From Candidatus Poribacteria bacterium (GTDB lineage: Bacteria > Poribacteria > WGA-4E > WGA-3G), in contig JAPOZO010000084.1 of assembly GCA_026706025.1 (NCBI GenBank), positions 1 through 64,000 of the forward strand: 64,000 nt of DNA. Reading direction: 5' to 3'. The notes beneath the pieces were generated by a model that made no database searches, was not told where the DNA came from, and worked only from the letters and a program-made list of their open reading frames with translations. This document shows positions 22,354 to 24,886 of this stretch, one piece after another. Within the stretch, counting starts at the first letter, position 1. Every line of letters begins with the position of its first letter. Position numbers and translations under genes: made by a program.

Positions 22354-23580
22354 ATGCCAAACGCAAGAACGCTTTATTTTCCGGAAGTAGGTCCCCAATG
22401 GGAAGACTGGGTCCAAGTTATTAACGTAGGCACGGAAGAGACCCAAGTAAATATAATAGCCCGACATGCACAGAACGGGCAGCCGACATGGTCAGATCAA
22501 AAAGAGATAAGTCCCTTTGAATGCTGGACCCCGAACGTTGAGGCGATTAAACAGAACTCTTCGATGCAGTTTTCCGCAGATCAACCGATTGTCGCAGAAC
22601 GGCACATGCACAAGGATTCAAACATCCTTGATTTCGTTGGAGCCGCAGAGGAATATGAGACCGTCGGACTCCGACTATTTTTCCCAGAATTGGTTCCTGG
22701 CGCACATGACTGGTTTCGTTTTCTCAACGTTGGCGAAGCGGACGCGTTGGTCAACATAATCGTCCGGAACAGACGCGGTCATATTATCAGGCAACACCAT
22801 CACAGAATCAGACCGCAGTGCTGTTGGGACATCAATGAAGGTATAATGGGAAACGTCAGAGGCACACTTGAGGTTCAAAGCACACAGCCGATTGTCGGTG
22901 AACGGCACCTCCATTATCAAAGTGGCAAAACTTGTGTCGGGCAATATGGGCAGGTGATTACGGATGCACCCCGTACGCTCTATTTTCCAGAAACGGGACC
23001 GGCATGGCGTGACTGGGCAATCATCGTCAATGTCGGCAAAGAAACAGGTGAGGTTACACTGATTGCACATGAAGATGGAACCGGCAAACCTGTAAATACA
23101 ATGCAGCGCGAATTAGATCCTTTTGAATGTTGGATGCCGAAGATGGATGATATAAAAATCAAATCTTCCGTTTTGGTGCGCTCTGATCAACCCATCGTTG
23201 CGGAACGGCACATGCACGCCGACACTGAGATCGTTGACCTACCCGGCGCATCAGAGGAAGGCGGACACGTCGGGATTCGTCTGTTTTTCCCAGAGGTGGC
23301 GAGTGGTGCAAGAGATTGGTTCCGTTTCCTTAACGTCGGAGAGAGTGATGCCCTCGTAAACATCATTGTCCGTAACAAAAAAGGAGATACCCGCAGGCAA
23401 ATACATCGGCGGATTAAACCCTTCTGTTGTGCCGATGTAGATGAAGGCGCGATGGGGAATATCCGCGGTTCGGTTGAAGCACAAAGTTCACAACCCATTG
23501 TAGGGGAACGACATCTCCACTACCAGAGCGGACATAAAGGTGCTGTTGTTGGGGAATATGGCATCGTGATCGGAGAATAA
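22354..23580 (+). CDS. Four-repeat beta-rich protein with ERHMH/ERHLH motifs
   Basis: A perfect AGGAGG precedes the ATG. The 408-residue protein consists of four repeats of about 100 residues in an A-B-A'-B' order, so it arose by duplication of a two-repeat unit. A repeats carry RTLYFPE.GP.W.DW and QPIVAERHMH.D. B repeats carry RLFFPE.....DWFRFLNVGE, a CC pair and QPIVGERHLHYQSG. The layout recalls ~100-residue PIVAER-type surface repeats of Actinobacteria and Chloroflexi, but no signal peptide is seen. The HxH motifs could bind metal; this is inference. It is followed after three bases by the predicted selenoprotein. Confidence 0.65.
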   Translation: MPNARTLYFPEVGPQWEDWVQVINVGTEETQVNIIARHAQNGQPTWSDQKEISPFECWTPNVEAIKQNSSMQFSADQPIVAERHMHKDSNILDFVGAAEEYETVGLRLFFPELVPGAHDWFRFLNVGEADALVNIIVRNRRGHIIRQHHHRIRPQCCWDINEGIMGNVRGTLEVQSTQPIVGERHLHYQSGKTCVGQYGQVITDAPRTLYFPETGPAWRDWAIIVNVGKETGEVTLIAHEDGTGKPVNTMQRELDPFECWMPKMDDIKIKSSVLVRSDQPIVAERHMHADTEIVDLPGASEEGGHVGIRLFFPEVASGARDWFRFLNVGESDALVNIIVRNKKGDTRRQIHRRIKPFCCADVDEGAMGNIRGSVEAQSSQPIVGERHLHYQSGHKGAVVGEYGIVIGE

Positions 23581-23583
23581 AAA

Positions 23584-24156
23584 ATGGCATGGATCCAAAC
23601 TGTAGATGAAGCCGATGCAACCGGCATCGTGAAAGCGGAATACGATGCTGCGATCGCGCGTGCTGGGGAACTTTACAATATCGTCAAACTCTTTAGTGCG
23701 AGACCGAAAAGCATGCGTGCTTTCGTTGAACTCTATAAAGTGGTGATGCACGATGAGGATTGCCCGCTGAGTCAGATGCAGCGCGAAATGATTGCGACTG
23801 TTGTCTCAAAAGTGAATGAATGCGACTACTGAATTATTGCACATGCAGATGAATTGCGGGCACAATTCACGGACACACAAATTGGGCAGATAATCACAGA
23901 TTTCCAGACAGCGGATATTGACGAAACCACGAAAGCGATCTTGGAATTTGCCGTTAAGGTGACAAAAGCAGCATCCACTATCACACCGACAGACTTAGAC
24001 CATCTCCGCAGTTATGGACTCACTGATGAGGCACTCTTTGCTATTGTGGAGATCGTCGGTTTTTTCAACTACGTAAATCGGATCGCGGATGCTTTCGGAA
24101 TTGAATTAGATGATTTTTTGCAACAAAGGAGGAATTTTAATGAATCTAACGGATAA
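23584..24156 (+). CDS. Predicted selenoprotein: AhpD-like/peroxidase-related carboxymuconolactone decarboxylase family, Sec at residue 83
   Basis: Two abutting open frames (23584-23832 and beyond) are in the same frame, separated only by the TGA at 23830-23832. Read through, they give a 190-residue protein aligning end to end with peroxidase-related AhpD-like enzymes. The TGA falls exactly on the second cysteine of the redox motif: VNECDY-U-IIAHADELR, where relatives have CxYCxxxH. A bacterial-type SECIS hairpin follows (23850-23869). GGAGAATAAAAA precedes the ATG. It sits between the four-repeat protein and an SDR with three-base and overlapping junctions, so one operon is likely. It probably reduces peroxides or related oxidants with the CxxU pair. 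The alternative is a nonsense pseudogene. Confidence 0.85.
23850..23869 (+). promoter_or_regulatory. Candidate bacterial SECIS element
   Basis: TGAATTG at 23850-23856 pairs perfectly with CAATTCA at 23863-23869 around the six-base loop CGGGCA. The loop starts 24 bases after the TGA, and its second base is G. This agrees with the general bacterial SECIS model: a hairpin shortly 3' of UGA with a G at the start of a small apical loop. It would recruit SelB for selenocysteine insertion. Confidence 0.75.
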
Positions 24157-24886
24157 AATTGCGATTGTGACAGGGGCGGGACAAGGTATCGGTAAAGCAA
24201 TTGCGCTGAGACTCGCGCAGGCAGGCGCGAATGTGGCTATCATGGATTTAAACATGGCGGCGGCTGAAGTGGTGGTGCAGGAAATCGAAGGTATTGGACG
24301 CAAAGCATTGCCCGTTCAAGCAGACGTATCGCAGTCCGCGTATGTCAACGCTGCAGTCGAAGAGGTGATTTCAACCTTCGGTCGCGTTGATATTCTCGTC
24401 AACAACGCCGGGATTGCGGGACGTACGCTGCCATTGACGGACTTGGAAGATGCGGACTGGGATGCCGTGATCGGTGTGAATCTCACAGGGGTGTTTCTCT
24501 GTTGTAAAGCAGTGATTGCACCGATGATCGCGCAGGATTATGGCAGGATTGTGAATATTGCCTCAATTGCTGGCAAAGAGGGAAATCCGACGCTTATCCC
24601 GTATTCGGTATCTAAGGCAGGGGTCATCTGTCTGACGAAGGCACTTGCTAAAGAGGTAACGGACTATAACATTCGTGTGAACGCGGTATCGCCTGCTGTG
24701 ATTCAAACACCTATTCTGGAAGGTATGGCACAATCGACGATTGACTATATGGTCGGCAAGATTCCGTTGGGGCGCGTAGGGAAACCCGAAGAGGTTGCGG
24801 CTGTCGTGAATTTCTTGGCTTCGGACGAGGCGAGTTTTGTGACGGGGCAATGCTATGATGTCAGCGGCGGAAGAGCGACATATTAA
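24140..24886 (+). CDS. Short-chain dehydrogenase/reductase (FabG-like)
   Basis: The ATG at 24140 has a perfect AAGGAGG and overlaps the end of the selenoprotein gene by 17 bases, showing coupling. The 248-residue protein has TGAGQGIG (residues 11-18), NNAG, the catalytic serine in IASIAG and the YSVSK catalytic Tyr-Lys pair. The sequence ends SFVTGQCYDVSGG, typical of classical SDRs related to 3-oxoacyl-ACP reductase. Given the operon it may reduce a carbonyl in the same pathway as the repeat protein and selenoprotein; the substrate is unknown. Confidence 0.88.
   Translation: MNLTDKIAIVTGAGQGIGKAIALRLAQAGANVAIMDLNMAAAEVVVQEIEGIGRKALPVQADVSQSAYVNAAVEEVISTFGRVDILVNNAGIAGRTLPLTDLEDADWDAVIGVNLTGVFLCCKAVIAPMIAQDYGRIVNIASIAGKEGNPTLIPYSVSKAGVICLTKALAKEVTDYNIRVNAVSPAVIQTPILEGMAQSTIDYMVGKIPLGRVGKPEEVAAVVNFLASDEASFVTGQCYDVSGGRATY

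Follow-up and report, generated by a model that had tools for sequence, protein, structure and literature searches.

Gene organisation at the locus

In the window, by which we mean the whole stretch of 64,000 nucleotides that was analysed, a frame opening with an ATG at 23584 and closing with a TAA at 24156 translates into 190 residues, its sole interruption being the TGA codon at 23830-23832 (Table 1). A mechanical ORF caller splits this gene into an ORF of 82 residues (23584-23832) and an orphan ORF of 100 residues (23854-24156). Re-reading of coordinates and sequence agrees here with a preceding sequence-only reading, which had described two same-frame halves parted by nothing but this TGA within a C-D-Y-U-I-I-A-H context and had foreseen that ordinary gene callers would produce a truncated and an orphan frame. 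The gene is closely packed between its neighbours. The ORF of 408 residues which precedes it stops 3 nt 5' of its start, and the SDR gene which follows overlaps it by 17 nt, the SDR start codon being located inside its last codons. A profile search of the 408-residue protein (22354-23580) yielded no Pfam or NCBIfam match.

Table 1. Positions of genes and sequence elements at the locus, numbered along the window.
Feature	Position	Strand	Details and basis
Upstream neighbour, 408 aa	22354..23580	+	two repeats of ~200 aa; conserved neighbour
GGAG, probable ribosome-binding site for the selenoprotein CDS	23572..23575	+	within the end of the upstream ORF; sequence, inference
Predicted AhpD-like selenoprotein CDS, 190 aa	23584..24156	+	translation through TGA; TIGR01926 and CMD matches; dN/dS low before and after the TGA
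TGC codon of Cys80, the first member of the CxxU pair	23821..23823	+	sequence; present in all aligned homologues
TGA codon 83, predicted selenocysteine, second Cys of CxxC	23830..23832	+	homologue codons; Cys in PDB 2pfx, 3c1l, 2prr
bSECIS-type hairpin	23850..23869	+	stem 23850-23856/23863-23869, loop CGGGCA 23857-23862; covariation
AAAGGAGG, Shine-Dalgarno sequence of the SDR gene	24125..24132	+	within the 3' end of the selenoprotein gene; sequence; GGAG-type site kept in remnants
Downstream neighbour, SDR-family oxidoreductase (FabG-like)	24140..24886	+	PF13561, E 9e-69; conserved synteny

Protein family and active site

The read-through product matches the NCBIfam model TIGR01926 (peroxidase-related enzyme) with 144.4 bits (cut-off 81.8, E 3e-42), whereby protein residues 2-174 cover positions 1-174 of the 178 model positions, and it also exceeds the cut-off of the CMD domain PF02627 (44.4 bits vs 23). 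The translation contains the site E68-x11-C80-D-Y-U83-I-I-A-H87, i.e. E-x11-C-x2-U-x3-H, in which the predicted selenocysteine occupies the place of the second cysteine. The spacing of E68, C80, U83 and H87 equals that of Glu118, Cys130, Cys133 and His137 in the site of M. tuberculosis AhpD (PMC3141380). Peroxidase-related AhpD-core proteins with solved structures (PDB 2pfx, 3c1l, 2prr, 2oyo and 6k40) are homologous over nearly the full length, and the alignment with 2pfx (E 1e-28) reveals a common E-x11-C-x2-[UC]-x3-H pattern. The aligned PDB relatives share the E-x11-CxxC-x3-H site but harbour cysteine instead of selenocysteine at its second position, as seen for 2pfx, 3c1l and 2prr at the TGA column.

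The sequence-only reading had assigned the TGA to the resolving cysteine of the family. Its location at the second cysteine of the CxxC pair holds, while a resolving role is not established, since in M. tuberculosis AhpD the second cysteine (Cys133) has reportedly been proposed as the nucleophile activated by the proton relay. The second cysteine may be the attacking residue. In sestrin, a distant relative of AhpD, on the other hand, only the first cysteine is retained (PMC4674687).

Homologues and selection

The gene finds a match in 56 of the 83 genomes of the class. Intact homologues of the same family, present in 35 genomes, carry the TGA, one of them (G035) together with further stops. 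As the codon at this column we found, among 52 distinct aligned loci, TGA in 49 and TGC in three, so that the homologue alignment which had been proposed as a check exhibits no unrelated codon; Cys80 is kept in every aligned homologue. The three TGC loci are all distant (L075 and L076 from Nitrospinota as well as the Poribacteria paralogue L098), and the TGA loci belong to Poribacteria and to two Planctomycetota contigs (L074, L077). Recurrence of the TGA at the same column extends across independent assemblies including single-contig genomes.

Compared with the homologue L026, dN amounts to 0.059 and dS to 0.94 before the TGA, and to 0.092 and 1.23, respectively, after it. Pairwise comparison with close relatives puts dN at about 0.02-0.12 and dS at about 0.2-1.7, both before and after the TGA, all these values referring to pairs without large indels that were treated as gap-free, with distant homologues containing indels (L079, L087, L077) left out. 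The protein is under purifying selection both before and after the TGA. The gene order (408-residue protein, AhpD-like protein, SDR) is conserved in the same-family loci which are long enough to show it. With dN far below dS in each half, a gap of 3 nt, an overlap of 17 nt and conserved synteny, the earlier description of two conserved halves in a tight operon proves accurate.

Selenocysteine machinery

The window comes from a Poribacteria MAG with a size of 6.27 Mb and a completeness of 96%. All four genes for which a search had been advised are found in it: selA (604 bits, cut-off 267.9), selB (352.8 bits, cut-off 242.25), selD (359.8 bits, cut-off 125; one in-frame TGA) and selC, the tRNA-Sec (78.1 bits, cut-off 47), whose anticodon is TCA. 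selB and the tRNA-Sec gene adjoin each other about 66 kb past the window on the same contig (C84:129927-131951), so that a binning error is of no concern for these two. Across the class, selA exceeds the cut-off in 70 and selB in 74 of the 83 genomes. Three genomes (G047, G028, G031) possess the TGA gene with neither selA nor selB above cut-off and a fourth (G059) has fragments of selA only, all four being at most 83% complete. We would like to add that selD (L020, G000:C56:238667-239590) is itself a predicted selenoprotein with the context KCAG-U-ASK; owing to its in-frame TGA the genome encodes at least two predicted selenoproteins.

The hairpin downstream of the TGA

The element TGAATTG-CGGGCA-CAATTCA forms a perfect stem of 7 bp closed by a loop of 6 nt with G at loop position 2, and the distance from TGA to loop is 24 nt. 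It was judged by the bSECIS model for spacing and loop and by the MFE limit of -7.5 kcal/mol, both taken from a review (PMC13188914). The geometry put forward in the sequence-only reading is exact and conforms to the bSECIS rules, but taken alone the hairpin is weaker than had been implied: stems of at least 7 bp which fit the spacing and loop rules follow 5.5% of the 7,011 codons of the window genes by chance. If the segment 23828-23875 (48 nt), recommended for folding, is submitted to RNAfold, an alternative fold is preferred (-8.8 kcal/mol, z -1.4); the proposed hairpin becomes the MFE fold once the TGA is excluded (23833-23872, -7.2 kcal/mol vs the limit of -7.5), and the hairpin by itself reaches -5.3 kcal/mol against the same limit. 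In the single sequence it is weak evidence and marginal by free energy, and in view of the z value and the chance rate single-sequence folding was rejected as proof of a SECIS element. No SECIS match was obtained when the genome was searched with the Rfam model SECIS_1 (RF00031) or when 23400-24300 was scanned against Rfam, a null result which is uninformative here because SECIS_1 matched no control genome either.

The comparison of 29 distinct homologous sequences supplies the stronger evidence. In the stem 95.6% of the cells are paired vs 81.7 ± 1.4% after shuffling, and the covariation score is 0.392 vs 0.123; none of 500 shuffles matches this degree of conservation and compensatory change. 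Compensatory changes occur at four of the seven stem pairs, one of which varies between GC, CG, AU, GU and UG among the homologues; cells changed on both sides number 26, compared to 6.5 ± 2.0 in shuffles. Every slid register is paired to at most 39%, and RNAalifold recovers the same stem unprompted. Since the changes run across codons, linking the third base of Glu/Asp codons with the first base of Phe/Leu/Val codons, the covariation is not readily explained by protein constraint alone. The conservation of the hairpin with covariation among relatives is not a matter of chance. One locus, L092 (G021:C1), contains an additional in-frame TAG inside the hairpin, created where both partners of a G-C pair have changed to A-U, so that pairing in the stem is preserved; the locus is probably a decaying copy.

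Gene remnants and alternative readings of the TGA

In five genomes (L099-L103) and at L078 the selenoprotein gene is reduced to short remnants between the genes for the 408-residue protein and the SDR. Each time the SDR gene is kept together with the 3' end containing its ribosome-binding site, and at L078 (5181-5290) the first 14 and the last ~19 codons are cleanly fused in frame. The genomes of L099-L103 still possess selA and selB. The end points of the deletions differ, and this sequence comparison suggests that the gene was lost several separate times.

Insertion of selenocysteine in bacteria competes with termination. On this general ground, and given that the Shine-Dalgarno sequence and start codon of the SDR gene lie within the final codons of the gene before it, one might regard the TGA as a regulated stop, with termination after codon 82 dominant and readthrough acting as a selenium switch of coupled SDR translation. 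The remnant genomes, in which the frame is broken or deleted, nevertheless retain the SDR gene and its ribosome-binding site, so that initiation at the SDR gene probably does not depend on readthrough; moreover, purifying selection acts on the C-terminal half at the protein level. We therefore consider a predominantly regulatory stop improbable. We attach a similarly small likelihood to a related reading, in which the selenocysteine codon of this lineage would additionally serve as a selenium-dependent gate, the SDR start being reached only after selenocysteine insertion and the remnants representing escapes from this control.

Reading of the TGA as another amino acid, through code reassignment or a nonsense suppressor, would account for a frame that is open only when the TGA is read, yet it has hardly any probability: TGA ends 4 of the 45 large ORFs in the window, meaning that the code is not reassigned, a dedicated tRNA-Sec (TCA) and SelA, SelB and SelD are present, and cysteine is the sole other residue at the column. 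Virtually no chance is left for a pseudogene or sequencing error, i.e. a nonsense mutation or wrong base call in a former cysteine codon, although TGA is one base away from TGC and TGT and the same gene has been reduced by deletion to remnants in several sister genomes, for the conservation of the TGA column in 49 distinct loci and the low dN relative to dS past the TGA exclude it and the selenocysteine system is complete. The earlier judgement that a decayed pseudogene is unlikely is thus upheld, and decay, reassignment and suppression were all rejected as readings.

Proposed function

What looks like a split gene is almost certainly a single intact gene, coding for an enzyme, in which the TGA is read as selenocysteine. 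As a whole, an intact AhpD-like gene with the TGA decoded as selenocysteine and encoding a Cys-Sec oxidoreductase is the best explanation of the locus, and we hold it with great confidence. The region 23584-24156 would encode a single AhpD-like thiol/selenol oxidoreductase, and we infer that selenocysteine is inserted at codon 83 by SelB and tRNA-Sec under the direction of the hairpin which follows closely on the 3' side. The C-D-Y-U redox pair would be situated in the catalytic helix of the AhpD fold, and Glu68, Tyr82 and His87 would stand where AhpD has the residues of its proton relay. The predicted peroxidase or reductase activity would most likely consist in the reduction of an organic hydroperoxide or an oxidised partner via a selenenyl-sulfide (Cys80-Sec83) intermediate.

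Relation to known selenoproteins

Catalogues have included AhpD-like selenoproteins with CxxU from 2008 at the latest; the Global Ocean Sampling survey contains 299 sequences of "AhpD-like 1" (COG2128, CxxU; PMC2398784), and a 2026 review tabulates an AhpD-like selenoprotein with TIGR01926 and CxxU (PMC13188914). The protein described here has in common with these the family, as TIGR01926 is matched above cut-off, and selenocysteine at the second cysteine position; it differs in its Poribacteria host and in the conserved neighbourhood of the 408-residue protein and SDR genes. An AhpD-like domain with CxxU is likewise a feature of NF041238 (AhpD_rel_CFYUT, alkylhydroperoxidase-related (seleno)protein). 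This model, however, is longer (357 positions), and the window protein aligns to its second half only, scoring 76.4 bits and hence below the cut-off of 175. In the literature searched we found no paper joining Poribacteria with a selenoprotein, while Poribacteria and selenocysteine co-occur in sponge metagenome papers. The kind of protein is thus already known and apparently unreported in Poribacteria. Judged by its homologues, the predicted selenoprotein appears conserved across sponge-associated Poribacteria, which adds a well-supported candidate and evidence for selenocysteine use to a phylum of sponge symbionts.

The homologue set also constitutes a clean comparative case. Orthologues within the family have either kept selenocysteine or lost the gene, a change from selenocysteine to cysteine being seen in none of them. 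A distant second TGA subfamily (L093-L097, ~35% identical) carries a hairpin in another register, ACGCAGA-GUU-UCUGCGU, which varies little and whose loop follows the TGA after ~17 nt instead of 24.
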